22,205 nucleotides of DNA from a virus. Position numbers and translations under genes: made by a program. This document shows, piece by piece, positions 423-19,048 of this stretch (its first letter is position 1; each line of letters starts with the position of its first letter). The stretch is from positions 1 through 22,205 of the IMG/VR virus record IMGVR_UViG_3300029309_003683. One strand, 5' to 3'. Below the pieces are notes generated by a model. That model worked only from the letters and a program-made list of their open reading frames with translations. It had not been told where the DNA came from and searched no databases.

Positions 423-2150
423 ATGAGCCGCCTGCGCCAACTACGAGCCTACGAGTACGGATCGAGCAGTGCGATCCAGACCGAGTTCGAGAGCATTGTC
501 CGCTATCTCCAGAGCGCTGAGGTCGGCGGCCAAACGCTGTCCGAGACCATCAACAAGATCACCGACGACAACGGCAATCTGCAAAGCAACGTCGCACTGC
601 GCAACGACGCCATCTCGGGCATCCAGTACCGTGTTGGCGAGTACACTGACGCCGAAGCAGGCTGGACGACCATCATCTCCGCCGCTGACCTGCGTGGCCC
701 GAGTGGCGTAGCAGTTGGCGAAATTGGTGCACCGATCTTCAACAGCCGAGTGGACTACACGGTAGTTACTACCCTCAGCGACCCGGTCGATAACACCGAG
801 ATCCTGACCGGCACTGCTGTACTGAACTACTCGCACCTCGAGAGCGACGAGCTTCTCGTGTACCGAGGCGGCATCCTGCTGCAAGAGGGCGGCGACTACA
901 CGACTGACCACAATGGCAACAGCGGTACTGGCACAGTAACGCTGACCACAGCCCACCTGACGCCGGTATCAGGCTCGGGCCCGATCACAACGAACGACAA
1001 TTTTACGATCTACAAAGTCCGCTCGACCGCCATCACGAACTTCCGGCGTTTGGACGCGACCAACGATGGCTCGGTTCCTCTGCCATTCGTCAGCTTTGAC
1101 CTCAGTGAGAGCACTCAGATCCTCGTCTACGTCTCCGGTATCCTGTACCGAGAGCCAGACGACTACGCCCGCGATCCTATCAATGACCGCGTTGTCTTCA
1201 CGGCCAACCAGCAAATCCAACCCGACGCAAACTACAGCATCATCACGGTTGAGGACGCGGACGTACAGACCGTGACCGGCATCATGATGGAGAGTGCCTT
1301 CACGGACATCACCACTGGCCTGATCCAGTTCAACAAGCTCGGCATCTCCGACGGGGCCATCACTCAGTCCAAGGTACAGAACCTTCAGACCGATCTCGCA
1401 GCTCGCGCCAAGTTGTTCACCACCACGCCGTCCGCAGCCGAACTGGCGAGTGGTGATATTGACGACGCCTTTTACACGCGCACGGCGAACAACGCGACTG
1501 AGGTCGTCTACTACGATGGCACGAGCAGCATTGTCCTCAACCCATCCAGCAGCCTGCCTTCCGCGTCCGATACGGACGTAAACAAGGTTGTCACCGTGGA
1601 CAGCGCCGGTTCATACGTCCTGTCTCTGGTGGACCTGAGTGGCGTCGTCAAAGACGATGACAAGAACGCAGCAAACGGCGTGGCTGCACTCGACGACAAC
1701 GCCAAGATCAGAAAAGACCAGTACGCGATGTCTGGCGACAACAGCCTGCTGAGCAGGTTCTCAGCCTCGCCGCACGTTGAGTTCTTTTACGACCCACAGC
1801 AGGGCAGCGATCCATCTACCTCAGCCATAATTGCAACTGGCGACTACCGTGTAGAGCGGTTCTACGGCCAGAACTTCAAGATCACTGGCTTGGAGATCCG
1901 ATGCAGCGGTGGCTCTGGCAACATCCGCCTCAAAAAGTCCGGCGCAGTTGTGGGTGACACCCACACCGTAGACATCGCCGCCGACCCGAGCGGAGCTGGC
2001 CTCGGCGTCCGCCGCGTGTCGCTGGGCTCCGGCTTCATTGGCATGGACAGCCGAGTGAACAGCATACTGCTGGAAGTGGAAGTCACTCTCTCGACCAACC
2101 TGACCGCACTTGAGGTCATCTTCCAAACCGAGCTGTTGGAGAATGCATAA
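423..2150 (+). CDS. Tail fibre / receptor-binding protein
   Basis: This 575-residue protein is probably the host-recognition fibre. The start ATG has TAGGAG six bases upstream. Residues 1-90 form a mixed N-terminal part, probably the virion anchor, ending in a GPSG stretch. Residues about 142-198 and 230-280 are two related beta modules: each has a core like ILVYxxGIL, then a DY, then a second strand pair ending in an IxxV strand. Residues 311-321 (GAITQSKVQNL) and 418-434 (NGVAALDDNAKIRKDQY) are of the kind that recurs in phage fibre stalks. Residues 448-575 are a beta-rich C-terminal head, the likely receptor-contact or trimer-tip part. No catalytic motif or chaperone domain was seen. It follows a tail protein and overlaps the next start by one base (TAATG). 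Confidence 0.78.
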   Translation: MSRLRQLRAYEYGSSSAIQTEFESIVRYLQSAEVGGQTLSETINKITDDNGNLQSNVALRNDAISGIQYRVGEYTDAEAGWTTIISAADLRGPSGVAVGEIGAPIFNSRVDYTVVTTLSDPVDNTEILTGTAVLNYSHLESDELLVYRGGILLQEGGDYTTDHNGNSGTGTVTLTTAHLTPVSGSGPITTNDNFTIYKVRSTAITNFRRLDATNDGSVPLPFVSFDLSESTQILVYVSGILYREPDDYARDPINDRVVFTANQQIQPDANYSIITVEDADVQTVTGIMMESAFTDITTGLIQFNKLGISDGAITQSKVQNLQTDLAARAKLFTTTPSAAELASGDIDDAFYTRTANNATEVVYYDGTSSIVLNPSSSLPSASDTDVNKVVTVDSAGSYVLSLVDLSGVVKDDDKNAANGVAALDDNAKIRKDQYAMSGDNSLLSRFSASPHVEFFYDPQQGSDPSTSAIIATGDYRVERFYGQNFKITGLEIRCSGGSGNIRLKKSGAVVGDTHTVDIAADPSGAGLGVRRVSLGSGFIGMDSRVNSILLEVEVTLSTNLTALEVIFQTELLENA

Positions 2151-3859
2151 TGAGCAGCTTCCTGAGGCAACTCGGCTTCCAGCAGAAGGGTAACTTCCAG
2201 ACGAACCCTTCGTCTGGGGTGAACATCTATCGCGACCGCTCCGGTCAGCGTATGTTCTCCGCGCCGTTCTTGCAGAACCCACAGCCGTTCAACGGTAACT
2301 TCGCCAGCCAAGCGGGCCTACGTCCGCCACAGGCCAGCACGCCCTCGACGACCAACAGTGTCAGCAATGCCAACAGCGGCATCACTGTAACTGGTGGCAA
2401 CACTCAGCCAGCCTCTCAGCCCGCACCACAGCCAACTGCCTCTCAGCCCGCCGCCCCAGCATTCGACATGGCGGCGTTTCTTCAGGCGCAGCAAGATGCG
2501 GCCAACGCCGCCGCAGAGCGCGCCGAGCAGCAGGCTCAGCAGCGCCTTGAGCAAGAGTTGCGCGGGCAGGCAGGCATGCTGTCCGGCATGTCGGCTGGCT
2601 TCGGCATCAACGATACCTCGCAGATCAACGCTGCCCTTGGCCAGCTCCGTGGCCTACAGGGGCAAGCCGCCGCGTCCGGCGTCTCCCTACCGGACGTGGC
2701 GTCCTCTATCTCGCAGCTTGAGGGTCTCCTCTCGCAGCGAACCGCCGAGCAAGGTCGCTACCAAGACTTCGTGAACCAGTTCAACACTGCCGCTCGCCAA
2801 GCTGGCAACTACGGCGTCAACGACGTGGACGCGATCAACTCGGCGATGCAGCAGTTCCAAGACTACCAGTCTGGCGCTACCGGCTTCAGCTCGCCACTCA
2901 ACGTGGACACCTCGTTCGTGGCCCCTCGTTCGCAATCTGCAATGGATCAACTCCAGCGCACACTCGACGAGCGTGAGCGTCAACTCGGCGTCGTCTCCGA
3001 CACCCGTTCCCAGCTCGAGGACTTCATCGGCAACTTCGGTGACGCCTACAACGCCGTGGACTTCCGCAATGCCGACCAGATCAGCGCCCTAGAGCGTGGC
3101 CTTGACCCGATTACCACCGGCACCATCGACGGCATCGACGTTGATTTCGACTTCTCAGACCTCGCTGGCCAGACCGCTGGGTTCACCGACATGATTGGCA
3201 ACCTGCGTGAGCGCCGAGGCCGCGAGCTCGACACCTTCGGCGGCGACGTTACCGACTTCTCGACCTCGCTGGGCGGCATCGACGCCGAGGGCGACGACTT
3301 CAGCGCCAACCAAGTGTACGGCGCACGCGATGACTTCCTTGGCCTCCAGCGCGAGCTCGGCAACTTTGGCTCCGGCGACCGCGTGAACACTTTCCGTGAG
3401 CAGCTCTTCGGCCTCGACGAGCAGTACGCTGGCCTCAGCGACGCACTGCGCGACCGCCAAGAGGGCGTAGAGAGCAACGCTCAGGCGTTCGTGGACAGCC
3501 TCATGGGTGGCCAGTTCACCGACATCAATCAGCTCTCCGCCGAGGAAGCGCGCCTCGCCGAGCTGCGCGCAAACCGTGGCCGGTTCGACGCCTTCCAGTC
3601 CGATGACGAGCTCAGCCGAGCCCAGCAGTTCCTTGGCGACACACGAGGCCGCCTGCAAGCTGAAGCACTTGCGCGTCAGCAGCAGGCAGAGCGCGACCGC
3701 ATGTTGGGTGGAAACACTGTAATGACGCCAGCGTTCGCGCGTCAGTTCATGAATGACGCCGAGTATCAGGCATTCCTCGCCTCGCTCGAGCAGGCCCGAG
3801 AAGGTCAGGACAGCGGCGCGCAAGCGACCGCTTTCGCCCGTAGTCTCGGGTTAGCGTAA
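2150..3859 (+). CDS. Glutamine-rich, helical repeat virion protein (probable internal/ejection protein)
   Basis: This 569-residue protein has no recognised family. It starts at an ATG sharing one base with the fibre stop, with GGAGA a short distance upstream. Residues about 55-105 are a Ser/Thr/Gln/Pro/Ala-rich flexible linker, followed by an Ala/Gln/Glu coiled-coil stretch (106-140). From about 141 to 500 there seem to be five diverged copies of a unit of roughly 60-80 residues. Each has a phenylalanine-centred helix (DFVNQF, DFIGNF, DFSTSL, AFVDSL), a D-rich loop and a second helix ending in charged residues. The C-terminal 70 residues are again helical and Q/A/R-rich. Its place between the fibre and the other internal proteins suggests an internal virion (ejection) protein or tail-associated scaffold; this rests on context only. 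Confidence 0.6.
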   Translation: MSSFLRQLGFQQKGNFQTNPSSGVNIYRDRSGQRMFSAPFLQNPQPFNGNFASQAGLRPPQASTPSTTNSVSNANSGITVTGGNTQPASQPAPQPTASQPAAPAFDMAAFLQAQQDAANAAAERAEQQAQQRLEQELRGQAGMLSGMSAGFGINDTSQINAALGQLRGLQGQAAASGVSLPDVASSISQLEGLLSQRTAEQGRYQDFVNQFNTAARQAGNYGVNDVDAINSAMQQFQDYQSGATGFSSPLNVDTSFVAPRSQSAMDQLQRTLDERERQLGVVSDTRSQLEDFIGNFGDAYNAVDFRNADQISALERGLDPITTGTIDGIDVDFDFSDLAGQTAGFTDMIGNLRERRGRELDTFGGDVTDFSTSLGGIDAEGDDFSANQVYGARDDFLGLQRELGNFGSGDRVNTFREQLFGLDEQYAGLSDALRDRQEGVESNAQAFVDSLMGGQFTDINQLSAEEARLAELRANRGRFDAFQSDDELSRAQQFLGDTRGRLQAEALARQQQAERDRMLGGNTVMTPAFARQFMNDAEYQAFLASLEQAREGQDSGAQATAFARSLGLA

Positions 3860-3869
3860 GGAGACGATC

Positions 3870-5423
3870 ATGCCCATTGGCTGGGGTGCACTCATCACTG
3901 CGGGGCTTCAGGCAGCCCCCTCCATCATTGGCGGTATCAGTGCCCTCCGACAGGGGCGGCAAGCCGAGACCCGTGCCGAACAGGACTACGCTTCCCAGCA
4001 GGCCCGCACTCAGCAGATTGACGACATGGCCCGTCAGCAGATGCGCCTGTTCGACATGGAGTACGCTGCCCGAGAAGAGCAGCGCGACTACTACCGCAAC
4101 ATGGACGAGATCAACCGCGCCATTCTCCAGAATGAGCGCGACTTCGACATGCAGCGGATGTTACGCACGGACGCGCAACTCGCCTCCGAGCGCGACTTCT
4201 ACATCAATCGTCAGATGGACCTCGACCGTGATGCCGCTTCCGAGCGTGCGCGCCAGCTTCAGCAGCTCATCAACAACCAGATGCTGGCTGCCTCCGAGCG
4301 GGACGTGGCCCTCGACGAGCTCAAGCGGGCTCAAGAAATCGCCGCTGGCGAGCGCGAGACGGACCTCCGCAACTTCCATGAGGCGCAGTTCCAAGCCCGT
4401 GCCGAACGTCAGTTCGCCATTGAGCAGATGGAGCAGAAGCGTGCGACTGCCCGAGCCGAGCGTGACTTCGAGCTGGAGCGCCGCAACGAGCTTGAGAACC
4501 GCCTGACCGACTACGGCGCTGCCATGGCCCAACTCCAAGAGAGCTTTGGCCCTGCGCGCCGTATGCGCGAGCTGACTGACGCCGACATCGACCGTGAAGT
4601 AGGCCGCCGCCGTGACCTCGTAAGCAGTGCCTACGACCGCGTGATCGACCGTGTATCTGGCACCAACGAGGCCGACCTGATGCGCCGAGGCATTCAGGGC
4701 ACCGATCCGGGCGACACCCGCGCACGCATTGCGGCACGTCTCGCCGACGATTTGGCGATGCAGCAGATGGCCGCCGAGGACAGCGCGATCAACTACCTGA
4801 GCAACGAGCAGAACCTCATGCTCAGCAACATTCAGGGTGATTATGCGACCCGCGACATGGCCTACCGCGATATGACCGCAGGCCAACTCGCAGGCTTCAA
4901 CGAGTTCGCTGGCCTACTCAACTCGACGCCGTCCGCCAACAACTACAATCTCGATGTGGGCATCGGCTCCGCCGTGTACGACCGAGGCATCCAGTCTGCC
5001 AACCAGTATCAGGCCCCACTCGCAGTCAACTCGGCGATCTACGATCAGGCCATCGGCTCCGGCTTCGGCCAGACGCTGGGCCTGCCGTCCGCTGTCAACA
5101 ACCAGCAGCTTCGCAGCGCCGCACTTATGGGCCCATTCGGCTCAACCAGCTTTGCTGATGCGTCCTACCTCGAGGCCGCAAACCAGAACCTGAACAACCT
5201 GCTGTCTCAGTCCACCACGCAGTATGAGAACAACCGGAACATGGCGCAGGCAGCCGACAAGTCGCTCGGCACAAACATCGAGAGCGGACTTGGCGTAGTC
5301 GAGGGTCTACTGCCCAACCTCTTCCCCCAGACGTTTTTCAACCACGACACGGGCGGAACGATCATGAACAGCTCAGGGATGACGGACTACGGTCGCACCT
5401 TCGGCTCAGTATTCGGGAAATAA
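3870..5423 (+). CDS. Internal virion protein with hydrophobic N-terminus and long 18-residue-repeat helix
   Basis: This 517-residue protein starts at an ATG with AAGGAGA seven bases upstream, ten bases after the previous stop. Residues 1-25 are hydrophobic and small (GWGALITAGLQAAPSIIGGI), as in T7 gp14, an ejected protein that enters the outer membrane; the likeness is positional and compositional, not a proven homology. Residues about 30-215 form one very long charged helix, with an ER pair every 18 residues exactly from 89 to 197. Residues 216-330 are a further helical region, and the C-terminal 190 residues are Asn/Ser/Gly-rich with few charges. The role is probably part of the ejected channel or internal core. 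It follows and precedes other probable ejection proteins with little or no gap. Confidence 0.65.
   Translation: MPIGWGALITAGLQAAPSIIGGISALRQGRQAETRAEQDYASQQARTQQIDDMARQQMRLFDMEYAAREEQRDYYRNMDEINRAILQNERDFDMQRMLRTDAQLASERDFYINRQMDLDRDAASERARQLQQLINNQMLAASERDVALDELKRAQEIAAGERETDLRNFHEAQFQARAERQFAIEQMEQKRATARAERDFELERRNELENRLTDYGAAMAQLQESFGPARRMRELTDADIDREVGRRRDLVSSAYDRVIDRVSGTNEADLMRRGIQGTDPGDTRARIAARLADDLAMQQMAAEDSAINYLSNEQNLMLSNIQGDYATRDMAYRDMTAGQLAGFNEFAGLLNSTPSANNYNLDVGIGSAVYDRGIQSANQYQAPLAVNSAIYDQAIGSGFGQTLGLPSAVNNQQLRSAALMGPFGSTSFADASYLEAANQNLNNLLSQSTTQYENNRNMAQAADKSLGTNIESGLGVVEGLLPNLFPQTFFNHDTGGTIMNSSGMTDYGRTFGSVFGK
4080..4511 (+). repeat. Eight in-phase 54-base units encoding an 18-residue helical repeat
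   Basis: Within the 517-residue protein, residues 71-214 divide into eight units of exactly 18 residues with no insertion or deletion. Seven begin with ER (residues 89, 107, 125, 143, 161, 179, 197) and the first begins with QR (71). The loose consensus is ERDFxL at the start and AxAS or AxA before the next ER. Eighteen residues equal five turns of an alpha helix, or one heptad plus one hendecad, so the ER pairs line up on one face of a nearly straight rod. DNA identity between units is low, which points to an old and selected repeat. Confidence 0.88.
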
Positions 5424-5426: not shown

Positions 5427-7916
5427 ATGTTCGGCGTAGGATTTACCCAAGGGTTTCAGGAAGGGCGGGAACGCACTCGCAACCGCCGCGCCAAGGTGTT
5501 CGACGCTTTCCAACGGTGGAAGGCCGACAACCCCTACGCGACTGCTGCTGACTTCCAGAACGCTGTCCGCGCCATTGGTGGCGGCGACCTGACGGTAGCC
5601 AACTCGCTCCCCGGCCAGCAGGCCATCCAGCGCATGGCCTCCGAAAACCAGCGTAAGAAGCAGGAAGACGACCTCCAAAAGAAGCGCGCCGCCATCAGCG
5701 AGCAGCTTCAAATGCAGAACACGATGCTTAGCCTCGTCAGCAACGCCGTGCAGATGTACGGCGATAAGGTTGACGCCAACATGCTGTCTCAGCAGTTCGG
5801 CGTGCCTGCCGACATAATCCAGCCTGCACTCGACCAAGCACAAGCCAAGGCCGCACAGGCGAAGGCCGAGAAGGACCAAACCGCTCAGCTTGAGGCGCTC
5901 GAGATTTACTCCTCAACACTCAACACCATGATCGCCAATGGCAGCACGCCAGAACAGGCCACAGCAGCAGCCAAGGCCAGATCCAGCCGCTATCTCAAGG
6001 CGGCAGGTGTGGATGTAAGCCTTGGCAACGTCGGTGCCCCCAGCCAGTTCGCTTCCAACATCGATGCGGCTAACGCCGAAGCGAACGCGCTGTACGGCAT
6101 CCGCGTCAACAAAGAAGCGCAGAACGCGGCGAACACCGTCCGCACTCTGTTCGCAAATGATCCCGAGCTACGAGATCTTCTGCTCAACGATGAGCAAGAA
6201 GCCATCAACGCGGCATTGGCGCGCTCTGGCATCGAATTGAATGACGACGTAGCCAAAGTCACCCGCGCGAACCTCGAGGCCAGTGTGGGCGAGATCGCAC
6301 GCGCGCACAGGGAGCGTCGAGACCGCGCCGACCGTGACGAGGCTGGCTCTGTTTACAGCGCCATGAACGAGGACGGGCCATCGAAGGACATGATCCTTGG
6401 CGATGAGGAGGCCGCACGCACTGCTTTACAAAACCAGCTCATAAGTGGAGGGATGTCCGAAGACCGCGCTGAAGTAGCTGTGAATACTTTGTTCGAGGAT
6501 CAGCAGCCGGTGCTCGAAGGATTGCATCAAGATCAGTACCAGTCTCTTGAGGGGCTGGAGGCCACACTGCTGCAAGGCGCTGCCGTCCGAGCACAGGCGT
6601 ACACTGATGGCCGCATGAAGCCAAAGGACGGTACAGTCTTGATCGACCTACCCGGCCAGAAGGGCGGGGCGGTATACGTTGGAGAGACCCACCTTCAGCA
6701 AATTGAGCGAGCCATGGCCCAACGTGCGTTTGCCGATGATGCAGAGATGAACGCCTTCTTTACGGCGCTCGTACAAGTTTCGGCTGATCGCATCGGCAAT
6801 GCCCAAGGGTCGTTCGGCAGCTTGGATGAAATGCTTGCCGCCGCTGATGCTCGCTTTGAAGAGAGCCAAAAGTACACTCTGCCTTCAATCAACCAACTCA
6901 TGAACGAGCTGGCTCAAGACCAGATGGATCAATTCACGTCCACCGCAGACATGGTGGAGCAAGACCTGATCCGCGCAGCCGATGACGATCAAGCGTACTT
7001 TGCAGGCGAGCTGGGCGAGGTGGACATCACCGAGGCTGCCATCGTGGAGGCCAACGCGCTGAATGATGACACCCGTGCCCGCGCGCTGGCTGACATTCGT
7101 GATGCTACGCTCAAGGCGATTGCCGATACTCAGGCTTACATGGAAGCTGTGGCTACTGGCTCGTTTAACCCCGTCGTTTTCAGTGAGCTGACACCCGAGC
7201 ACCGTTTAGCGCGTGGCGTTGAGTACGACAAAGAGGCCCACTTGGCAGGCATTCAGCGCCGCCTCGACGACCTGAACGCACGTTTGGCCTTGGTTGCAGG
7301 CAGCAGCCAATACCGTAGCCCCGGCCTCAATATAAATGACGCGCCTCCACCCGCGCTACTGCCCAACAACCTGACGGTTGAAAACAATGGCGTCAGCCGT
7401 GATGTGACGTTCTCCGAGGCGTTAAGCGCGCCCGACAACCGGGTCAACTACTTTGCTGACGGCCTTGAGGCGACCTTAACCGCTGCCGGACGCGCAGAAA
7501 TACAACAGTACCTGCCAGACATCATGGCTGCTGTATCCAGTGATGACACTGTCAGAGACATCCGAGTGGTACGCGGGATAGGCGACGGGCTGGAAGCGTA
7601 TGACTTTATGAAGGACTACGCGATGTCAGTGAGCAATGCGGAGTTCCAGTCTTTCCTCGACAAAGTCGGCATCAACATGCGAGTTGGGGCAATCCTCAAC
7701 GCAGACGATGTAGATGAGGCAGCGAGACAGTACGCCCGCATTATGTTCGCCGCCCAACTCGATGGCACTGACCACCCGAAGGGCAGCGAATTGATACAGC
7801 AGTTCGGCGAAATGCTGTTCCTGCTCGATGACCGCTCTGGCCTTGAAAGCAGAGCAGGCGCAGCCTTCCTGCGCGCTCCTCTTCTGGACCTGCCGCGTAT
7901 GCGGGAAAGCCTGTAA
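5427..7916 (+). CDS. Large helical internal virion protein (gp15-like position), unknown family
   Basis: This 829-residue protein follows the previous stop by three bases; GGGA lies about eight bases before the ATG, a weak ribosome-binding site that suggests coupling to the gene upstream. It begins MFGVGFTQGFQEGRER and is mostly alpha-helical, with Ala/Gln/Lys-rich coiled-coil stretches near residues 75-175 and acidic helices through the middle. No signal peptide, clear membrane segment or catalytic motif was found. Size and position between a gp14-like and a giant gp16-like protein suggest the middle ejection protein of a podovirus-type set, as gp15 in T7. This is inference from gene order. 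The 3' half (from about 6420) uses more A/T-ending and rare codons than the 5' half, which may mark a recombination joint. Confidence 0.6.
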   Translation: MFGVGFTQGFQEGRERTRNRRAKVFDAFQRWKADNPYATAADFQNAVRAIGGGDLTVANSLPGQQAIQRMASENQRKKQEDDLQKKRAAISEQLQMQNTMLSLVSNAVQMYGDKVDANMLSQQFGVPADIIQPALDQAQAKAAQAKAEKDQTAQLEALEIYSSTLNTMIANGSTPEQATAAAKARSSRYLKAAGVDVSLGNVGAPSQFASNIDAANAEANALYGIRVNKEAQNAANTVRTLFANDPELRDLLLNDEQEAINAALARSGIELNDDVAKVTRANLEASVGEIARAHRERRDRADRDEAGSVYSAMNEDGPSKDMILGDEEAARTALQNQLISGGMSEDRAEVAVNTLFEDQQPVLEGLHQDQYQSLEGLEATLLQGAAVRAQAYTDGRMKPKDGTVLIDLPGQKGGAVYVGETHLQQIERAMAQRAFADDAEMNAFFTALVQVSADRIGNAQGSFGSLDEMLAAADARFEESQKYTLPSINQLMNELAQDQMDQFTSTADMVEQDLIRAADDDQAYFAGELGEVDITEAAIVEANALNDDTRARALADIRDATLKAIADTQAYMEAVATGSFNPVVFSELTPEHRLARGVEYDKEAHLAGIQRRLDDLNARLALVAGSSQYRSPGLNINDAPPPALLPNNLTVENNGVSRDVTFSEALSAPDNRVNYFADGLEATLTAAGRAEIQQYLPDIMAAVSSDDTVRDIRVVRGIGDGLEAYDFMKDYAMSVSNAEFQSFLDKVGINMRVGAILNADDVDEAARQYARIMFAAQLDGTDHPKGSELIQQFGEMLFLLDDRSGLESRAGAAFLRAPLLDLPRMRESL

Positions 7917-7978: not shown

Positions 7979-10900
7979 ATGGCTTTCGGCTCTTCTCGTC
8001 GTCGCAGCACTACCCCTGACTATGCTCGGGATATTGACGGCACGACCCTGCTTCGCAATCCGTCCTTCCTCGCAGATCTGCGTGATTATTATCGTAAGCG
8101 TGGCGTTTACATTGATGATGACCGCACGCTGGTAGAGCGCTTCCACCGCGACCAGACGTTCATGGGTATGAACACGCTGGGCGGTATCGGCGGTATCCTG
8201 AAGGCCAAGTCAGCCAGCAAAGAAGGCCGAGCGCAGCAGCGCCGCCTCCGTGACGCCTACCAAAAACTGCCTATGTTCTTCGAGCAGGGGGGGATCGGCG
8301 CGGCAGGGGCTGGCAACATTGGTGCGGCCATGTTGCTGGACCCACTAAACCTCGTCGGCTTCGGGGCAGGTGCTGGCGCGAGAGCGGGCACCAAGTTGAT
8401 TGCAGCAGGGGCGACAGGGGCTCAGGCCACGCGCGCAGGGGCTAAAGCTGGCGCGGTGCGTGGTGCGGTGGCCGAGGGCGTCGTAGGTGCAGGCTCAGAG
8501 GCCGTCATGTCCGGCATTCAGCAGGGCATCGACCTCGAGCTGGGTCTGCAAGACAACTTCTCCATGGGCCGTCTGGTATTCGATGCAGCAGCAGGTGGCG
8601 TCATGGGCGGCGCACTTGGTGCTGGTTTCGGTGCTGCTGGTGGCGCGATAGCGACCCGGCGTGCTCATCGAGGCGCTCGTTTAGCTGCGATGGAAAAGCT
8701 CGGATACAAACTGCCTGAGATCCAGCGCATGAGTGACGATCAGATGGCTAACATCCTGAGCGAAGCAGGGATGAAGCCCGAGGAGATCGACAAGGCTGGC
8801 GCAGCCATGGACGCCGCAACTGGCCCAACGCAGCCCGAGCAGCCCGAGCAGCCAACCGCTACTTTTGACGGTGCGTTCGGTGGCGGGTCTCGTGACCCCG
8901 CCCTAGATAGCGACCGCTCTCTCCCGGTGGCTGAGGGTGACGGCGCGCAATTCGGCGGCATGGACCCATACACCCAGCGCGGCTACCGCTCGCTGATTGT
9001 TAATCTTAACGATGAGGATCTTGCCAGTGCCAAAGCTAACGCTGATGCAGAACGCCGAGAGATCGAGGCAGATAAAGCCGCCGACCCGGACTATGCACCA
9101 GAGGACGCTGAAGCCGACAACGCAGCCCTCAATCGCGCCATTGACGAAGAAATTGCTCGCCGTGCCGCCGAACAACCAAAGGCAGAGGAAGCACCTGCCG
9201 ATGGGGCACCGGCACAAGAGGGAGCAGAAGCTACTGATACCGCAGACGAAGCTCCTGTAGCCCCCAAAATCCGCATCCACCCGTCCACGCGCAAGCTGGC
9301 TGAGGACAACGGCGTAGACGTGGAGACTGTCTTTGCCGGACAGAAGCGGGTCAACAAGAAGCAGGTCCAAGACTACATCGCCGCTCGTGACACCGAGCAG
9401 GCGGCGAGTAACCCCATGATGGTTGAGGCTGAGGCCACCCTGTCTCGCACCGTGGCCGACATCGAGACTGCTGGTGGTGACGTAACCAACCAGAAGGAAG
9501 TCTTCGCCGAGCTCGAGCGTCTGATCGAGGATGAGGAGCTGCGTCGTATGGCGCAGACCCTCTACAAAGAAAGCCGCGAGTTCACTCAGAAGAGCGTCCG
9601 TCGAGAAGCCCCGGCTGCCACGGCTAAGGGCGCGTCTCTCGACCGCGTTCAGAAGATGCGGGTTGCCAACAAAAAGGCCGACCTCATCGAGAACGATCCG
9701 AACATGTCGGAAGCTGAAGCCGAGCGCATAGCCACCGCATCAGTGCTTGGCACCAAGGCCGAGGAAGTTCCGAGCAACTTCGGCGAGAGCCGACGCGGCT
9801 CCAGCGCTGCACGCGCTGAGCGCGAGCTGGCCGAGGGGCCAGTAACCACGGGCCAGACCATCCAGCCTCGCACTGATGTGCGCACGGGCGAGCGCTACTA
9901 CTCCACTCGTGTCTCGAAGATCCTGCGCCGTGGCTTCAGCGTAGGCGATGGCCGCACCGTCACCGACCGCAACCTTGTGCCCACTCGTGGTGACATGCCG
10001 CGCGAGGAGGCCGTCGCTCGCGCCAAGATGAACGCCGAGAACGGCACTGGCCCGACCTTGGTCAGCTTCACCGCCAAGGTGTCCACCCGCGCTCAGAACG
10101 GCAAGATGATCGAGCGAGGCGAGACTGGCTACGCAGATGGTGTGTCCGGCAAAATCTTCGCATCCAAGGGCGACTACGAAGCGGCGACCGGGCGCAGCAC
10201 TCTTGATGCTGGCCTGAGTGAGCGCATGCTGATCGAGGCAGACTACCAGAGTGGCAACATCTCCGCCGCTGAAGCTGCCCGCCTGATCGGCCAGCACGAG
10301 GCCAACGAGACCGCAGGTACGTTCAACTCACTGCACTCCATCCCCACCAGCAAGGGCAACCTCGTCGCTGCCATCCGCTACATTCCGGGCGACATCTCCG
10401 ACCCTGTCCGCATCCTGTCTCTAGCACAGGCCGCAGAGGGCAGAGGCGTCCGCCCACTGCTGGCCAAGAAGGGTGGCCCGCAGAGCAACCCAGCGAATTG
10501 GGAGCTGGCCTACGTCGCGCGTCCGACTGAGAAGGGCAAAGAGGCGAAGGCTGCTGCCTTCGACGCAGCGGAAGTTGAGGGCACCGTCGAACAGGCGGCG
10601 ATCACGCCACGAGCAGACGGCACCGAGGAGGGCGGCCCACCAGCCCTGAACGACATTGCTGAGATCACAGTCCCACTCAGCCCAGAGCAAACGGCTCGTT
10701 TAACGGAGATTGCGCGACGATCCCCAAGGACGCCTCGTGAGTTTGTTACGGTGATACAAATGGGCGTCATTCAATACGGCCACGTTTGGCAGTTACTGAA
10801 TGGTTTCCACAGTGCGAAATGGCCGAGAACGGAGGCCGAGCTAGACGTGCTGCTGGAAACGCTGAGTGAGGTAAGCCGACTGCAATCGGAGCTGTTCCCT

Positions 10901-13900
10901 CGTGGCGTCAAAATGCCAGAGGTCGAGCGGACAAAAGCGATTGAGGAGCTGAAAAATGCGCTCGGCAAGCTCGATGAAGCAGACCTGAAGCTAGTCGAGA
11001 CGCTGTTTGACGGCATGCAAACTGGCGGCGCTCCAGCCGTGGTGCGGAGTGACGGGCCGGTTTATCGGCCCATCACAGAGAAAGGCGAAATTTCCTTAGT
11101 TGGGATGCCGGACCTCAGCGTAGAAGACGCAAGGAACGTGGATTATTCGTTGCGTGCCAGAGGCCCGATCTTTGTCCACGAAGCAATGCACTGGCTGTAT
11201 CGCCACGGCATGACGGCCAAAGAGCGCCAACTGTTCTGGGAAAGCACCCGCAAGTTCTACAAAGACGGCACGCTCGACATGGCCGAGCTGAAGAAGAAAG
11301 TGCCGGGTCCGGGGACGGCAGGGAACAAGCTCGAAAGCCCGCAGGAATACTTCGCCAATCAGGGCATGATGTACTTCACGCAGCGTGAGGCCACCCCTGA
11401 GATGGTGGACTTCTGGCAGAAGATGGGTGAGCGCATCAAGCAGTTCATCAAGGGCATCATGGACCCGAACCGTGTGGACGACGAGCTCCGTCCGCTGTTC
11501 GCGCGCCTGCTGAGCGACCCTGAAGGCGAGCGCCATCGCCTCAGCCGTTTCTCCGAGCCGCGTCGTGATGAGGGTGTCCACATCTTCAAACGCTTCACCG
11601 AGCAGGGTGAAATCGACCAGAGAATGCGGGCGGCGATGATAGCGGGTGACGATGCCGGCATCCTGTCCTCTGCTCAGGATCTGCTTTCCTACCTCAACTC
11701 GATTGGCATGAGCCGCAAAGAGGCCGAGTTCATCGCTCGCCGACAGAAGGTCCAGCCCCGCACTACTGGCGTCTTCTACCCGGTCAAGAGCCAGTACCTG
11801 CAAATCCGCGTCATGCGCGAGAAGCTGTACGAGATCATTTCGGGCAACAGCGCCGAACACTTCGACGAAGGCGTCTACACCGATCTTGGCCCCGGCTTCC
11901 AGATTGAAGGTGGCATAGAGAAAGGCGACGAGCTCATGGACCTGTACCGCGAGGAAGGCGGGATCAAAGAGCTGCTAGTCAAGATCGACGACCTTTATTC
12001 CTCGCAGTACGAAATCGTCGAGCGTGGTCAACTCAACCGTCTTCAGAAGCGCGGCAAGACCTCACTGTCTGCCGAGGCCACCGCCGAAACCCGTCGTCAA
12101 CTCGCCCGTGCCGACGCACGGCTGGACCGCCAGCTTGCGCTGATCCAGCGCCTCGAGAGCAACGACACCAGCATGGGTGAAGCACTGCTCGACCAAGACG
12201 CCGTCATCGACGCGACTATGGACGGCGACGTAACTGTCTCCAGCATCCGCACCGTCCGTGAGATGATGGCCAAGGCCCGTGAGCTCCGCAACGAGCCGGA
12301 TGGTCGGGTCATTGCCCACCTCGTTGGTCGCCGCCTGCGGGCTGGTGAGCTCGACCTCCCAGCATCCACTGCGGATGACGAGCTGCTGCAAATTGTCCGT
12401 GACATGGAGACCACCGATCTGGCTGACACCGCGTTCGACCTTCTGCGGAGTGAGCCAGATCCTACAGAGTTTACCGATGACACGCTCGTTGCCGTCATGG
12501 CCGAGCTCAAAAACCGGATCGACATCTCGGAGGGCATCGCGCCCGAAAATCCGTTTGTGCCAGACCCAACGGACCTTGGTCTGGTCAACCACTTCGGCAC
12601 GCGCCCATCCGTCCGCCGCCTTCAGATGCGGATGGACATCCGAGGCGAGGGCGCAGAAGACCTGCGCACTATGTTCGGTCGCCTGCTGAACCTGCGTGGC
12701 AAGGGCTCCGCCGAAGCTGGCGACGCCAATCTGCCGATGGAAAGTGACGCCGCTGCAATCTCGGGGCAGCCCATCTCCACTGCCGATGCGCCCCTGCTGG
12801 AGACCAGCCTCCAGTTCAGAGAGTTGCGCAGTGCATTGCGCGGCGTCACCACCCGTCTACTACGCGGCGACGACAAGGCAATGGCAGAGCTGGCCGGTAT
12901 GGCAACTCGTGCTGCACTGTCACCCAGAGAGCGCGATCTAATCGCTCAACTCGGCGACGACATCGGCGAGACTGTAGCCAAGCGCCTGCGTGGTGAACGC
13001 ACTGGCCTCAACGAGCTGCCCAACCGCAGTGAGGTAAGTGACGCTTTACAACGCGCACAGGAAGCCACGGCCTACACGATCAACGGCATCGTCAAGGACA
13101 GCGGCATGCGCCAGCGCTACTGGCGCGCACACATCTACGGTGACATGGACACGCCGATGGCCAACAAGCCACACGCTGACGTGTTCGACCCGAAGAAGCC
13201 AGTACCGCCATCCATCGCAGCCGAGGTGGCCAGCGAAGTTATGGACGCTGGCGGCCTTCGCCTGCGCCGTGGCGTCAACGCCTTCACTCGTGGCACGGTC
13301 GGCGAGGGGCAGGTCTTCTACGCTCAGACCCCTGACGGCTCTCCAAACCACACTGGCGGCGTTGCCTCCGGCGGCCCTGCCGGTGCAGCCGTCTACGTCT
13401 CCGCCGCTCCCGGCGGCGTGCCTCAGCGCCGCAACATGGCCAAGGCTGCGAAGCCTGAGCTCACAGCCGAGTTGAACAGCCGCCTTGCTGCGCTCGAGGA
13501 GCAGCTCTCTGCCGTGCGTGCCGCCATTGCCGATGGTGGGCCACACGTTGCTATCCGCAAGGCGGAGCGGACCAAACTGCTGAAGTACATCTCGGCAGTG
13601 CGGGGCGCTCTGGCAGAGAACAACACGCCAGCCTCGAGCGTTACGCCGGTCGTCATTGCTGCACGCAGCCTCGCCGACCTCACCGAGAGTGCGCGCTACA
13701 ATGCAGCCCAAGGCTTGCCAGTGGCCATCAGCGACTACCTTGGCCGCACCAACTCCAGTGCAGCGCAGTCCTTCCGGGCTGACATGATCGGCAAGACCGA
13801 CCTGACGGGTGCCGAGCTGATGGACATCCTGTCTGGCTCAGTCGGCCCAGCTCGTATGGCGCAGATGTTCCGAGGTATGGGCTACGACGGTATTCAGTTC

Positions 13901-16753
13901 CGCCGTGGTGCCTCCGACGAGATCGCTCTGTATCGCACCGAGCAAGTCAGCGCGCTCACCAACCCAGCCCTGACCATGCCTGAGATGGCTATGCCAACCG
14001 ATACGCAGCCCCGTATCTACGACAGCATGGGCGATCAGATGGTCATGGCCATGAGCGGTGAGCGCCCCGACCCCGCTCGTATCGAGATCCGTGAAGAGAT
14101 GCGAGTGGAGCAGGGTATGGACCCCGAGCTCTCCGAGCTGATCGCCGACATGGAGCGTGGCGCAAACGGCGAGCTGCCCGAGCGCAAGGTCAGCGGCATG
14201 GTTCGTACATACAACCGCTTCATGCGCGGTATCGCCGACCGCATGAGCTACCTCGGCCACGAGCAGATCGCCAATCGCTTCCGTTCGTTCGAGCTTGACC
14301 AGCGCCAGCAACTGGCCAGCTACGTCACGCCACTGATGGACGTGATCAATAAGGCCCGTGGTGACAACTCGCACATCCTGAAGCGGACGTGGGACTACCT
14401 GAACGAGCCACGCCGAGGCAAGGGCCGTCATCGTCTGGCACACAAGCAGAGCGCGAGCGAGAACCGTATTCTCAAGGCTCTGCGTATGGGCGAGGCCAGC
14501 GACGCCTACCGCCTGCTCAACGACGACGAGCGCACCGCTTACACCGAAGTACGCAAAGCCTACCGTGATGTTCACGACCGGATGCGCGCTGAGGGTATCC
14601 CCATCGGCGACTTGGGCAGCAATTATTTCGGGCAGGTCTGGGATCAGGACCACATCCGTCGCAACATCCCGGCGTTCCGCAAGCTGCTCATCGGCCTCTA
14701 CAACGCCGAGCGTGGCCTCGAGGTGTCCGCCTCCGAGGCTGCTGTCACTGCGCACCGCATGGACAGTGAGGCGTTTGCCGAGGGCGTGATCCGGTCCATC
14801 GTTGGCAATGACACCAATGGCATCCTGCCGACCACCGACTTTGACGGTAACGGCAACCCGATCAACGCTATCGAGCACAGCCGAGTGCTGCACTTCCAGA
14901 AGTACCCAGCCCTGCACGAGCAGGCCATGGAGTTCATGGACGGCTCGCTGATGGGCAACATCGTCCGGTACATGGATCAGGCCACTCGTAAGATTAACCA
15001 CACCAAGAACTTCGGTCTCGGCGGCCACATCGCCTACGACTATGTGAAGGTGGCCCAAGAGGGTAGGGACGGTGTGGCCAAGCTGCTCAGCTCGGACAAG
15101 GTGTTCACTCGCCAGATGACGATGGTGGATGGCAACAACGTGGACCGCACCGAGGTGCGCTACAAGGTGCCTGCTCCGTTCGCCCGCCGTCCAGAGCTGG
15201 CTCGCCAGCTCGCCGAGCAGGTCACGATCATGGTCAACTCGGGTGACGTGAAGGGTGCCCAGACAACGCTGATGCAGTTCGCGCCGAAGTCTGGCGATAA
15301 CGTCATCGACCGTGGCTTCGAGCGTCGAGCGGAGGCTATCATCGACGGCCTGCGAGACCACCGAGGAGAGCAGTCGGGCTTTGCCACAGCCGATCTCGAT
15401 GCACTCGAGGCCAACATGCTCTACGCCGTGCGGCGTGGGCAGGGCGGCAACGATCTGGCCAACAACACTGGTCGCCTGATGCGTCGCTTCAACAACGTCA
15501 CCCTGCTGGCGTTCACCACGCTCACCTCGTTCTCGGACATCGCCATGCCGCTGTTGCGCACTGGCGACTTCAAGGCGTTCGCCCGTGGCTGGAAGAGCTT
15601 CCTCAAGGCTACCGTCACAGCGGACGACGAGACCAAGCGTGCGCTTCGCCGCATCGGTGTGGGCATGGACGGTGTCGTCGCATCTCGCCTGACCGAGATG
15701 ACAGGCGACGGGGCTGACGTGGTGCAGGACGTATTCTTCCGTGGCACGGGCCTGACTGGCTGGACGAACATGAACAGCCAAATCTCCGGGCTCATCGGCC
15801 TTGAGAGCTTCCGCGCTGAGCAGGCTCGAGCAGTGAACCTCCACAACCCCGACGTTTCGATGGCTGAGCAAAGCCCAGCGTTCAAAAAAGCCTTCCGTTA
15901 TCTCGCCCACTTCGGGCTGGACTTCCGCAAGGACACCTTCGACCTGAAGGACGCCTCGGTCGGCAACGCCGTGAACCAGTTCGTCAAAGAGACGATCTTC
16001 GCGCCGACACCAAACGAGCTGCCCTCGTGGGCCAACAACGGCCCGTGGTTTAAGACCGTGGCCCAGCTCAAGTCGTTCCCGATGATGTACGAGCGGCTGG
16101 TCACGAACATGGCTTCGACCACCTACAGCGGCATGCGCGAGGCCATGGCCAAGGGCGACATCGTCACGGCGGCCAGCTACCTCGGCCCAGCGGGTGTCTT
16201 CATTCTGGCTCCTCTGTTCGGCATCGGTGCCAACTCGGCCAAGGACGTGGTCATGGGCCGTGGCGGCGAGGACAACGACGAGTTCGGCAAGGTCGCCGCA
16301 AAGCGGCTGAGCGAGGACTTCATCTTCAAGGGGCTGCTCGCAGACCAAGAGGCGTTCGACGCCTTCATGGGCCACTACATCGCCGGGATGTTCACGGCTG
16401 GCGGCCTCGGTCTGCTCGGCCAGATGATCTACGACAGCTCGGCGCAGATGGACAACGACGCCTACGGTCGTGAGCGCATGGCCAGCCTGATGATGGGCCC
16501 ATCGTTCTCGGTCGTGTTCGGTGACGTTCCGAAGGTGGCGAGTGGACTGCTGGCCATCCCAGATCCAGAGGGCAAGTCTCGCCGCCGGACGGCGGTGCGT
16601 ACCGTGACCTCACGCATTCCTATTGCTGGCCAGATCAGGCCATTCCGCGAGACCGTAGTCGATACGGTGGCGGGCGAAGTGGAAGAGAAGAGCAGCGACA
16701 GCTACGGCGTCAGCTCTTACGGCTCAAGGGTGAGTGGGTATGGACGCAGCTAA
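7979..16753 (+). CDS. Giant polyvalent virion/ejection protein with metallopeptidase and ADP-ribosyltransferase-like domains
   Basis: This 2924-residue protein is preceded by GGAGA at a good distance. Visible regions in order: residues 1-100, basic helical start; 103-227, glycine/alanine-rich hydrophobic stretch with glycine-zipper character, possibly membrane-inserting; 285-430, acidic Pro/Ala/Glu linker; 430-470, like the peripheral subunit-binding domain of E2 enzymes; 1040-1180, zincin peptidase with H1067-E1068-x-x-H1071 and a third-ligand candidate E1123 in QEYFA; about 1740-1993, ADP-ribosyltransferase-like, with R1771-G1772-T1773, a VYVS strand and GYDGI at 1968-1972; about 2060-2300, helical phage region with YFGQVWD; about 2480-2870, C-terminal helical part with QLKSFPMMYERLV, resembling a large polyvalent protein associated domain (LPD38 type); hydrophobic segments near 2736-2755 and 2800-2818. 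Phage polyvalent proteins are known to travel in virions carrying several effector domains. It is likely the T7 gp16-like ejection protein, entering the host with DNA. Domain calls are by eye. Confidence 0.75.
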   Translation: MAFGSSRRRSTTPDYARDIDGTTLLRNPSFLADLRDYYRKRGVYIDDDRTLVERFHRDQTFMGMNTLGGIGGILKAKSASKEGRAQQRRLRDAYQKLPMFFEQGGIGAAGAGNIGAAMLLDPLNLVGFGAGAGARAGTKLIAAGATGAQATRAGAKAGAVRGAVAEGVVGAGSEAVMSGIQQGIDLELGLQDNFSMGRLVFDAAAGGVMGGALGAGFGAAGGAIATRRAHRGARLAAMEKLGYKLPEIQRMSDDQMANILSEAGMKPEEIDKAGAAMDAATGPTQPEQPEQPTATFDGAFGGGSRDPALDSDRSLPVAEGDGAQFGGMDPYTQRGYRSLIVNLNDEDLASAKANADAERREIEADKAADPDYAPEDAEADNAALNRAIDEEIARRAAEQPKAEEAPADGAPAQEGAEATDTADEAPVAPKIRIHPSTRKLAEDNGVDVETVFAGQKRVNKKQVQDYIAARDTEQAASNPMMVEAEATLSRTVADIETAGGDVTNQKEVFAELERLIEDEELRRMAQTLYKESREFTQKSVRREAPAATAKGASLDRVQKMRVANKKADLIENDPNMSEAEAERIATASVLGTKAEEVPSNFGESRRGSSAARAERELAEGPVTTGQTIQPRTDVRTGERYYSTRVSKILRRGFSVGDGRTVTDRNLVPTRGDMPREEAVARAKMNAENGTGPTLVSFTAKVSTRAQNGKMIERGETGYADGVSGKIFASKGDYEAATGRSTLDAGLSERMLIEADYQSGNISAAEAARLIGQHEANETAGTFNSLHSIPTSKGNLVAAIRYIPGDISDPVRILSLAQAAEGRGVRPLLAKKGGPQSNPANWELAYVARPTEKGKEAKAAAFDAAEVEGTVEQAAITPRADGTEEGGPPALNDIAEITVPLSPEQTARLTEIARRSPRTPREFVTVIQMGVIQYGHVWQLLNGFHSAKWPRTEAELDVLLETLSEVSRLQSELFPRGVKMPEVERTKAIEELKNALGKLDEADLKLVETLFDGMQTGGAPAVVRSDGPVYRPITEKGEISLVGMPDLSVEDARNVDYSLRARGPIFVHEAMHWLYRHGMTAKERQLFWESTRKFYKDGTLDMAELKKKVPGPGTAGNKLESPQEYFANQGMMYFTQREATPEMVDFWQKMGERIKQFIKGIMDPNRVDDELRPLFARLLSDPEGERHRLSRFSEPRRDEGVHIFKRFTEQGEIDQRMRAAMIAGDDAGILSSAQDLLSYLNSIGMSRKEAEFIARRQKVQPRTTGVFYPVKSQYLQIRVMREKLYEIISGNSAEHFDEGVYTDLGPGFQIEGGIEKGDELMDLYREEGGIKELLVKIDDLYSSQYEIVERGQLNRLQKRGKTSLSAEATAETRRQLARADARLDRQLALIQRLESNDTSMGEALLDQDAVIDATMDGDVTVSSIRTVREMMAKARELRNEPDGRVIAHLVGRRLRAGELDLPASTADDELLQIVRDMETTDLADTAFDLLRSEPDPTEFTDDTLVAVMAELKNRIDISEGIAPENPFVPDPTDLGLVNHFGTRPSVRRLQMRMDIRGEGAEDLRTMFGRLLNLRGKGSAEAGDANLPMESDAAAISGQPISTADAPLLETSLQFRELRSALRGVTTRLLRGDDKAMAELAGMATRAALSPRERDLIAQLGDDIGETVAKRLRGERTGLNELPNRSEVSDALQRAQEATAYTINGIVKDSGMRQRYWRAHIYGDMDTPMANKPHADVFDPKKPVPPSIAAEVASEVMDAGGLRLRRGVNAFTRGTVGEGQVFYAQTPDGSPNHTGGVASGGPAGAAVYVSAAPGGVPQRRNMAKAAKPELTAELNSRLAALEEQLSAVRAAIADGGPHVAIRKAERTKLLKYISAVRGALAENNTPASSVTPVVIAARSLADLTESARYNAAQGLPVAISDYLGRTNSSAAQSFRADMIGKTDLTGAELMDILSGSVGPARMAQMFRGMGYDGIQFRRGASDEIALYRTEQVSALTNPALTMPEMAMPTDTQPRIYDSMGDQMVMAMSGERPDPARIEIREEMRVEQGMDPELSELIADMERGANGELPERKVSGMVRTYNRFMRGIADRMSYLGHEQIANRFRSFELDQRQQLASYVTPLMDVINKARGDNSHILKRTWDYLNEPRRGKGRHRLAHKQSASENRILKALRMGEASDAYRLLNDDERTAYTEVRKAYRDVHDRMRAEGIPIGDLGSNYFGQVWDQDHIRRNIPAFRKLLIGLYNAERGLEVSASEAAVTAHRMDSEAFAEGVIRSIVGNDTNGILPTTDFDGNGNPINAIEHSRVLHFQKYPALHEQAMEFMDGSLMGNIVRYMDQATRKINHTKNFGLGGHIAYDYVKVAQEGRDGVAKLLSSDKVFTRQMTMVDGNNVDRTEVRYKVPAPFARRPELARQLAEQVTIMVNSGDVKGAQTTLMQFAPKSGDNVIDRGFERRAEAIIDGLRDHRGEQSGFATADLDALEANMLYAVRRGQGGNDLANNTGRLMRRFNNVTLLAFTTLTSFSDIAMPLLRTGDFKAFARGWKSFLKATVTADDETKRALRRIGVGMDGVVASRLTEMTGDGADVVQDVFFRGTGLTGWTNMNSQISGLIGLESFRAEQARAVNLHNPDVSMAEQSPAFKKAFRYLAHFGLDFRKDTFDLKDASVGNAVNQFVKETIFAPTPNELPSWANNGPWFKTVAQLKSFPMMYERLVTNMASTTYSGMREAMAKGDIVTAASYLGPAGVFILAPLFGIGANSAKDVVMGRGGEDNDEFGKVAAKRLSEDFIFKGLLADQEAFDAFMGHYIAGMFTAGGLGLLGQMIYDSSAQMDNDAYGRERMASLMMGPSFSVVFGDVPKVASGLLAIPDPEGKSRRRTAVRTVTSRIPIAGQIRPFRETVVDTVAGEVEEKSSDSYGVSSYGSRVSGYGRS

Positions 16754-17082: not shown

Positions 17083-17447
17083 GCTTTCTGCGCCATCACT
17101 AGATTGCGCCGATGCAGCGACGTGCTCAGTGCTCGCTTGAAGTTCTCTTCGGCTTCCTCGTCACTCGCCGAGACTGCCGCAACGACCTCTCCAAGCGCCG
17201 CCGCAAGCGCATAGACTGCGCCAATCCCTGTCGGCGTACCGAGCCCAGCTTCCGCCTCACGAGCCTGCTCAAACGCCGACGCCGCTAACCTCACTACTGG
17301 CGTGGAGGGTGATGTCTCGGGCCTCGTTGGCTCCGACGCCCTCTCGTTTTGACTGCTCGTCTCGGGCTCTCTCGGCGGCTCGGTGGAGCTTGGCGATGTC
17401 AGTTCCGTTTCCGAGTGCTCGTCGCTGTGCTGGTGGTCGGTCGTCAT
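17064..17447 (-). CDS. Unknown 127-residue protein, overlapping the diphosphohydrolase gene
   Basis: Its product is not recognised. The start ATG (17447) has a very good ribosome-binding site, GAGGAG six bases upstream, which is the main reason to accept it. The first 60 residues are Ser/Thr/Pro/Glu-rich and probably disordered; they are encoded in the same DNA as the last 59 residues of the upstream diphosphohydrolase, in a +1-shifted frame. The second half (about 60-127) looks more like folded protein, with an Ala-rich helix (GIGAVYALAAALGEVVAA) and a charged amphipathic C-terminus. The hydrophobic stretch is too short and too small-residue to be a sure membrane span, so a holin-like role is possible but unsupported. 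It is last in the leftward operon and converges on the o-spanin. Confidence 0.6.
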   Translation of the reverse strand: MTTDHQHSDEHSETELTSPSSTEPPREPETSSQNERASEPTRPETSPSTPVVRLAASAFEQAREAEAGLGTPTGIGAVYALAAALGEVVAAVSASDEEAEENFKRALSTSLHRRNLVMAQKAQLQSS

Positions 17448-17757
17448 TGCCAACTCCTCGTAGGTGAATGGATAGCAGCATGAGTATGCACGCGCCTGCG
17501 TGCGCCAGATGGGGCAGGGCGGTCTCGTCGTCGAAGTCGTCTCGCTCGTGCCATGCCATCAGATGATTAAGTGCGGCCCGGTAGAGCTGGCTGTGGTTCA
17601 CGCCACGCTCCCAATTTCGATCCGAATACTTGTGCGCCCCATAGGTAAACGCCAGCGCGACCTCGCGCAGGGCATCAGTGGGCAGCAGGTCCAGCCGGTT
17701 CTTGAACTTGTCGTACTTCACGCCGGTTTTGCCGAGGTCGCGGATCGAGTTGGCCAT
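17269..17757 (-). CDS. dATP/dGTP diphosphohydrolase N-terminal-type protein (DUF5664-like)
   Basis: This 162-residue protein is read from the ATG at 17757, which shares one base with the TGA of the upstream nuclease gene and has GGAGAG about ten bases before it; a longer frame starting upstream lacks this support. Residues about 20-95 carry the family pattern: DALREVALAFTYGAHKYSDR, then NWERG, a conserved helix with HLMAWHERDDFDDE, then LPHLAHAGACILMLL. This matches the phage family named dATP/dGTP diphosphohydrolase, N-terminal (formerly DUF5664), thought to act on purine dNTPs. The biochemical role of this member is inferred from the family name. The last 59 residues are low-complexity and lie outside the conserved part, where the next gene overlaps. 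It belongs to the leftward recombination operon and may adjust nucleotide pools for phage DNA synthesis. Confidence 0.75.
   Translation of the reverse strand: MANSIRDLGKTGVKYDKFKNRLDLLPTDALREVALAFTYGAHKYSDRNWERGVNHSQLYRAALNHLMAWHERDDFDDETALPHLAHAGACILMLLSIHLRGVGNDDRPPAQRRALGNGTDIAKLHRAAERARDEQSKREGVGANEARDITLHASSEVSGVGV
17454..17459 (-). promoter_or_regulatory. Strong ribosome-binding site for the overlapping gene
   Basis: The leftward strand reads GAGGAG, six bases, then ATG at 17447. This near-perfect Shine-Dalgarno lies inside the diphosphohydrolase coding sequence. It argues that the overlapping frame is translated, and it decides the start against the upstream TTG at 17453, which directly abuts the site. 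Confidence 0.65.
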
Positions 17758-18620
17758 CAGATTTTCTCTCCGGGTGTCCATGTTTTGTAGTCGTCGCAGG
17801 GGTCGTCACGGACTTCCTTGAGCCGAGTGCAGAACCATGCGCCCTCGCCTGTGGGCTTCGAGTGGGCGCACGTCCGACACACAGTCTCAGGGGCCAACCC
17901 TTCCCAGCAGGCGTCACGCTTCGAGCAGAAGCGGCAGCCAAAGAAGCCGGGGCCATCGTTGGTGATGCGGCGTCCGTTGCCGCTCTCGAGCACACGCTCG
18001 GTCTTGGCGAGTAGGCCCTCGTATCGGAACTGATCGAAGGGCACGATCTCGGCGTGGTAATCGCTCGTGTTCTTGTTGTAAGCGATGAACAATGCGTGCC
18101 GCATGCCAGATGCACCCATATAAAACTGGCACTGGTCCGCGTAGTGGCTGTGGCTGCTGGCCACGCCGGTCTTCACGAACTTTTTCCAGCTCGCATCGTT
18201 CATGCTCTTGATCTCGAGGAGGTAGACCTCGCCATCGGGCCCTTCGATCTTTCCGTCAATGTTCGACCGCACATGCCCACCATGGCTATGGTAGGCGAAC
18301 TGCCGTCCATTGGCGTCACGATCCCACACTTGGAACCCGCCGCGCTTCAGGTCGTACACAACATCATCCTCGATCTTGTGGCCGTCTCTGAAGATGCGGC
18401 GAACCCGTGGTGGAAAGTCGTTGTCGGGAAAACCACGCAGGCCAAAGGCAACGCTCGCGTCACATTCCTTGCCGATCATGGAGCCCCCGATATACGAGCG
18501 GGGCTTTCCATGATCTTTGCGCTGATACGAGCGGTCTATGGCGTCAACGACCTCACCCGCCCAAGCCTGTGAAGCCTGAGCGGGGATGGTCGTATCGTCG
18601 TCTTCCCAAGGAGCAGTCAT
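17757..18620 (-). CDS. PD-(D/E)XK nuclease, Cas4/RecB-like with probable Fe-S cysteines
   Basis: This 287-residue protein is a probable DNA exonuclease. Motifs in order: C53 in GSMIGKECDASVAFG, the N-terminal cysteine position of Cas4/AddB-type nucleases; E84 in GHKIEDD; D122 in SNIDGK; E136-x-K138 in LLEIKSM; Q163-xxx-Y167 in the QxxxY motif; then C229-x2-C232-x5-C238. C53 with the last three would form a 4Fe-4S cluster, as in Cas4-like proteins. A second set follows, C248-x2-C251, C264 and C275, which could bind zinc and is not part of the usual family core. The start shares one base with the stop of the SSB-like gene and has no strong ribosome-binding site, so translation is likely coupled. 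Next to a Sak4-like protein and an SSB-like protein it probably makes single-stranded ends for recombination. Confidence 0.8.
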   Translation of the reverse strand: MTAPWEDDDTTIPAQASQAWAGEVVDAIDRSYQRKDHGKPRSYIGGSMIGKECDASVAFGLRGFPDNDFPPRVRRIFRDGHKIEDDVVYDLKRGGFQVWDRDANGRQFAYHSHGGHVRSNIDGKIEGPDGEVYLLEIKSMNDASWKKFVKTGVASSHSHYADQCQFYMGASGMRHALFIAYNKNTSDYHAEIVPFDQFRYEGLLAKTERVLESGNGRRITNDGPGFFGCRFCSKRDACWEGLAPETVCRTCAHSKPTGEGAWFCTRLKEVRDDPCDDYKTWTPGEKI

Positions 18621-19036: not shown

Positions 19037-19048
19037 TCGTATCTCCCG

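Follow-up and report, generated by a model that had tools for sequence, protein, structure and literature searches.

Upon refolding, the ejection proteins of short-tailed phages form conduits; to our knowledge, no rule has been established that determines how long a conduit is. The equivalent proteins of T7 (PMC11784390) and of DEV and N4 (PMC10925440, PMC12633501) form helical trans-envelope channels. The genes of T7 are arranged in the order 13-14-15-16, and the Schitoviridae encode a trio of a small, a medium and a giant ejection protein (gp73-gp72-gp71 in DEV and gp52-gp51-gp50 in N4), which contain long helices and form a trans-envelope tube (PMC10925440, PMC12633501). We analyzed a stretch of viral DNA of 22,205 nucleotides (IMG/VR record IMGVR_UViG_3300029309_003683; hereafter, the window), in which a 569-aa modular protein (positions 2150–3859), a 517-aa protein containing a repetitive rod (3870–5423), an 829-aa protein (5427–7916) and a 2924-aa giant protein (7979–16753) are encoded in this order on the plus strand. 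By description, the last three resemble the small, medium and giant proteins of the Schitoviridae; however, DEV gp73 is a 17.7-kDa protein without an 18-residue rod.

Genomic context of the rod gene

The only isolate matching the rod protein among 50,697 phage records was Roseobacter phage CRP-810 (OR671924.1), on which a marine family comprising 251 related genomes was founded (PMC11288001). Its gp38 is homologous to the rod protein (tblastn, E = 6e-35, 36% identity over 69%), lies in the same gene order and contains eight 18-residue units in the same register; it is annotated only as a hypothetical protein, and mention of gp38 was not found in PMC11288001. The upstream modular protein is similar to CRP-810 gp39. 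The AAA ATPase and the Prim-Pol are core genes common to both phages (58% and 33% identity, respectively), and the late proteins are 30–36% identical and arranged in the same order. For the PD-(D/E)XK nuclease, a further core gene of the family, a match to the YqaJ type (PF09588) was just below the cut-off in the window. With its core genes in the family arrangement, the window is a member of the CRP-810-type marine phage family. In CRP-810, a GNAT gene is located ahead of the gp39/gp38-type pair, and the gp13-slot protein of some T7-like phages, internal virion protein A, is annotated as an acetyltransferase. Positions 17269–19804 of the window, on the minus strand and facing the late operon, encode a dATP/dGTP diphosphohydrolase (PF18909), a YqaJ-type nuclease, an SSB-like protein and a Sak4-like ATPase. 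Two scans of genome contigs for prophage copies found none.

Among the neighbors of the rod gene, the giant protein in the gp16 slot matched PHROG 342, a gp16-type family described as 'internal virion protein with endolysin domain', at residues 2450–2702 (E = 1.6e-5), and is 30% identical to CRP-810 gp34-36. It is a single ORF in the window, whereas in CRP-810 it corresponds to three ORFs (gp36, gp35 and gp34; L001 19679–29319), indicating fission or fusion. CRP-810 gp35 (L001 20778–26828) showed a weak match to ART-PolyVal, a polyvalent ADP-ribosyltransferase (E = 7e-5), which suggests that the ejected giant protein may carry an enzymatic domain; a Pfam search of the matching region of the window protein gave no match. 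The 829-aa protein occupies the slot of T7 gp15, which forms the periplasmic tunnel (PDB 7k5c and 9jyy), and its putative identity as gp15 comes from a weak, colinear and partial fold match: Foldseek of the AlphaFold2 model (pLDDT 73.6) placed T7 gp15 third among 350,542 PDB chains with a non-significant E value of 1.1, and VIA-align gave Z values of 6.7–6.8, a level that helical proteins may reach simply by having a common arrangement. The 829-aa protein had no profile match to gp15. Most relatives encode proteins in this slot that are only 10–17% identical to the 829-aa protein, except in the N-terminal ~70 residues, where a conserved NPYAT..DFQ...GG motif likely marks a docking domain.

The rod gene appears to occupy the operon slot of T7 gp14 (PF24072), the ejection protein that makes a channel in the outer membrane, ahead of the putative gp15- and gp16-like genes. 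Residues 1–70 (3870–4079), comprising a hydrophobic, alanine-rich N-terminus and the start of a helix, showed weak profile similarity to the N-terminus of gp14 (hhalign, probability 58–69%, E about 1e-4 in a one-to-one comparison). Two relatives matched the Pfam T7_gp14 profile with E values of 0.01 and 0.025, both under the cut-off; the best relative scored 16.2 bits, over the N-terminal 65 residues only, against a cut-off of 27 bits. The window protein had no match to PF24072, and hhalign against the single T7 gp14 and gp15 sequences returned nothing. Unlike the rod protein, T7 gp14 is 196 aa long and lacks the 18-residue rod. In line with the initial annotation, which named no family with this repeat in this position, neither Pfam nor PHROG has a family that covers the rod protein of the window, and an ejection or internal virion role fits the position in the operon. 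Synteny and the weak profile matches support, rather than prove, the assignment of the rod gene to an ejection-protein operon of the gp14/gp15/gp16 type and of its product as the gp14-slot ejection (internal virion) protein.

An 18-residue repeat conserved among relatives

Residues 71–214 of the rod protein (4080–4511, plus strand) consist of eight 18-residue units without any insertion, the first starting with QR and the other seven with ER; translation and autocorrelation agree with the unit count of the initial annotation. The lag-18 identity autocorrelation over residues 31–235 (z = 6.4) was the highest among lags 1–59 and was equalled in 0 of 2000 shuffles, and z was 9.4 within the 144-residue core. 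A search for a tandem repeat at the DNA level found none. We gathered homologues from viral contigs with the rod protein, its upstream neighbor and the ATPase gene as starting points, and obtained 44 sequences (26 non-redundant) that were 23–95% identical to the window protein. In the 26 non-redundant homologues, the mean BLOSUM62 scores per pair were +0.41, +0.39 and +0.36 at lags 18, 36 and 54, respectively, ~8 sd higher than at the other lags (–0.51, sd 0.11), and the top lag was 18, 36 or 54 in all 26. Because these three lags stand out while the helix-phase lags (7, 11, 14, 15, 22 and 25) are at background, the pattern represents a true 18-residue repeat beyond helical periodicity.

The register is kept among relatives at 24–33% identity. 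All 144 rod positions are filled in the 44 homologues, with no deletions, and proline is absent from the 3744 residues of the rod block in the 26 non-redundant ones. The ER start, which describes units 2–8 of the window protein, does not extend to every unit of the family: it is strong only in units 2, 3, 5, 6, 7 and 8 (16–26 of 26 homologues each), whereas unit 1 mostly starts with EN and unit 4 is degenerate. In a 35-sequence alignment, E143, E161, E179 and E197, each of which is a unit start, are invariant. Gly160, which closes unit 5, is present in 25 of the 26 relatives, and the motif N-Q-x-[LI]-[ST/A]-x-x-E-R is conserved ahead of unit 5. In the literature that we searched, no relevant report of an 18-residue repeat in a phage or coiled-coil protein was found. 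The rod is a real, strictly conserved repeat, and represents a new family-specific rod within a known kind of system.

Residues 215–350 (4512–4919) form a helical region with invariant columns, including a conserved NEADLxRxG motif. Past this region, at residues ~365–400 (4960–5070), there is a second, shorter repeat of about 20 residues (GSAVYDRxIQSANxYxxPLxVxSAIYD), and the C-terminal part of one relative, L156, contains more copies of it than the window protein.

Helical character of the rod

The initial annotation had pictured the rod as one uninterrupted, almost untwisted helix of about 21 nm that bears a fixed charged stripe and differs from a heptad coiled coil; only the last of these properties was borne out. 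AlphaFold2 with the 35-sequence alignment predicted helices at residues 21–136, 141–159, 161–226, 237–273 and 280–350, in a model that is weak overall (pLDDT 56.6, pTM 0.24) and has pLDDT values of about 70–85 in the last two helices. Because the predicted breaks at residues 137–140 (4278–4289) and at Gly160 (4347–4349) coincide with the boundaries of units 4/5 and 5/6 and with the conserved NQ motif and glycine, so that the low-confidence model and the conservation agree, the rod is probably helical but segmented, being broken after units 4 and 5, rather than a single straight helix of 21 nm. A one-sided stripe was not seen in the 100-degree moments of the 18-column average (permutation tests, P = 0.68 for hydrophobicity and P = 0.22 for signed charge). 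In the best heptad frame, the a/d positions were 0.41–0.49 hydrophobic, which is inside the range of shuffles; likewise, the best frame of a hendecad (11/3) a/d/e/h core was below the 95% shuffle level, with lag 11 at background. A PDB sequence search with the family profile gave chance helix matches only (best E = 0.2), and Foldseek of the rod-protein model found no PDB match below E = 0.35 and one BFVD homologue whose function is not known.

A composition rich in glutamate and arginine (15% and 14%), the absence of proline and an enrichment of acid-to-base pairs at i,i+1 and i,i+3 (z = 9 from i to i+3) are also features expected of a stable single α-helix of the ER/K type, which would serve as a spacer and whose periodicity would be a by-product of salt bridges. 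However, the i,i+4 acid–base pairs that define such helices are not enriched (z = 0.3 and –0.8), and the specificity of lags 18, 36 and 54 and the nearly invariant Gly160 further speak against a simple spacer, which we consider highly improbable.

The hydrophobic and alanine positions recur with a period near 6 and are consequently spread round the helix, as for helices contacted on several sides. This distribution would suit a rod that associates only with itself, six to twelve copies forming a straight helical barrel or a tube wall as suggested in the initial annotation; the length of the upstream protein would then change for other reasons, for example if both proteins responded separately to capsid, portal or envelope dimensions. 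Precedents are T7 gp14, whose helices pair up in a hexameric channel once the protein has been ejected (PMC11784390), and DEV gp73/gp72, which form a nonameric tube (PMC10925440). Nevertheless, neither a heptad nor a hendecad hydrophobic pattern is present, the rod is interrupted by conserved breaks, and the length changes of the upstream protein described below match those of the rod; self-association as the sole arrangement appears rather unlikely.

Length covariation with the upstream protein

The number of units is eight in most relatives, but about twelve in three lineages, namely L153/155/158/163/164 (+65 residues), L156 with L239 (+72 residues) and L232 (+72 residues, exactly twelve units). 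The L153-type sequences, L156, L239 and L232 overturn a strictly fixed rod length. The extra ~4 units are inserted after unit 5, past Gly160, and the inserts of L153 and L156 both resemble earlier units of their own rods. An insert placed at residue 121 in L156 was rejected as a repeat-alignment ambiguity, given that it fits after unit 5 like those of the other long rods. At rod residues 166–194 of L153, the 65 added residues make up three units and a remainder of 11 residues. Compared with 72, seven residues, or two turns of helix, have been lost mid-addition in this lineage, and the 18-residue register is broken once.

The upstream protein is composed of ~82-residue modules, which a module HMM detected in the window at residues 190–258 (2717–2923; i-E = 4e-20) and 268–346 (2951–3187; i-E = 4e-10), with a partial module at residues 124–174 (2519–2671; i-E = 9.5e-6). 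By eye, the module consensus opens with a helix of about 36 residues, equal in length to two rod units. In all three long-rod lineages, the module number of this protein is five, as opposed to three. Each of the 35 distinct gene pairs with a short rod contains 1–3 detected full modules (4 when a partial one is counted), and short-rod phages with readable modules have three full ones each, often plus a partial one; in contrast, all 7 long-rod pairs contain 5–6 modules, or 4 strong and 1 weak in L232. The distance between conserved anchors within the upstream protein was 456–470 residues for eight-unit rods, 501 in L137 and 620 in L232; the increase of 164 in L232 over the 456 of short-rod phages equals two modules, the first of its five modules being the weak one.

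A correlation with the total length of the upstream protein was set aside as misleading, as this protein is long for other reasons in L134, L137, L154 and L161. L137 combines an upstream protein of 1019 aa with an eight-unit rod, but is not an exception to the rule because its anchor distance is only 501; L154 and L161 have upstream proteins of about 850 aa with three modules and eight units. Module counts and anchor distances account for L137, L154 and L161, and the modules of L134 and L137 are only partly detectable. The gp15-slot protein, used as a negative control, ranges from 518 to 915 aa and does not track rod length. The covariation rule was first noticed post hoc; L232, which emerged afterward when the upstream protein was used to seed a scan, fits the rule. 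These results suggest that the rod and the upstream protein are constructed with mutually fitting lengths. The length constraint proposed in the initial annotation appears to hold in this form, as one set by or with the neighboring modular protein and not by anything shown on the tail or periplasm.

We further analyzed whether the long rods arose independently. A single origin was not rejected with gp38 alone (AU test, P = 0.24), but was rejected with the gp38 C-terminal part, gp41 and gp42 combined (AU test, P = 0.0099, for a group named after the tree had been seen and before L232 and L239 were added). With L232 and L239 included, the tree of the same three regions, of which gp38 is itself one, required three changes, all three forced by well-supported branches, and the 5–95% bounds of the number of changes over 200 bootstraps were 3. 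A rough estimate of the chance that three rod changes and three module changes fall on the same three of ~49 branches was about 1 in 18,000. Three independent length events are not certain, because adjacent genes could be exchanged as a block.

The covariation bears on two of the alternatives. A shift of two modules in 3/3 long-rod lineages, next to a gp15-slot protein that varies freely, is at odds with a rod that only self-associates. By contrast, it would be equally expected if the upstream protein served as a chaperone or scaffold for assembly, sheathing the rod in the infected cell without being ejected, the length match being that of chaperone and client. The product of T7 gene 13 has a role in assembly, and the upstream protein adjoins the gp13 slot. 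The upstream protein, however, resembled no known chaperone in our searches, although nothing else speaks specifically against this function; we regard a chaperone as unlikely.

A model for the matched lengths

The reading that we favor, with a probability of a little under one half for the whole, is that, in a CRP-810-type short-tailed marine phage, the rod protein is a gp14-slot ejection protein whose segmented stalk lies in register against the modular protein encoded upstream, so that their lengths are matched. The N-terminal region would be gp14-like, with a 144-residue helical stalk of eight 18-residue units built in behind it. The stalk would lack an amphipathic core of its own, and partners, above all the upstream protein, would hold it on several faces, about two units (36 residues, 5.4 nm as a helix) packing against one ~82-residue module. 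A gain of length in one protein would then demand a gain in the other, giving eight units with three full modules or ~12 units with five. The addition of 65 instead of 72 residues in one long-rod lineage is a point against this arrangement. We infer that the two proteins pair physically and that the complex would reside in the virion alongside the gp15/gp16-like core proteins; on infection, it might be expelled and become part of the trans-envelope conduit or of its lining.

A stronger version is that the two proteins constitute a two-component molecular ruler with 36 rod residues per 82-residue module, which would set the length of a trans-envelope conduit or of an internal core in this phage family, each step comprising four units and two modules, and would have switched length repeatedly in evolution through concerted duplication in both genes. 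We consider this version possible but doubtful.

In our view, the length match between two neighboring proteins is the most interesting and most testable result of this analysis. A strict 18-residue repeat whose unit number, 8 or about 12, follows the module count of an adjacent gene in three lineages amounts to a readable length code, and functional hypotheses are gained for two gene families that are recorded only as hypothetical in CRP-810.
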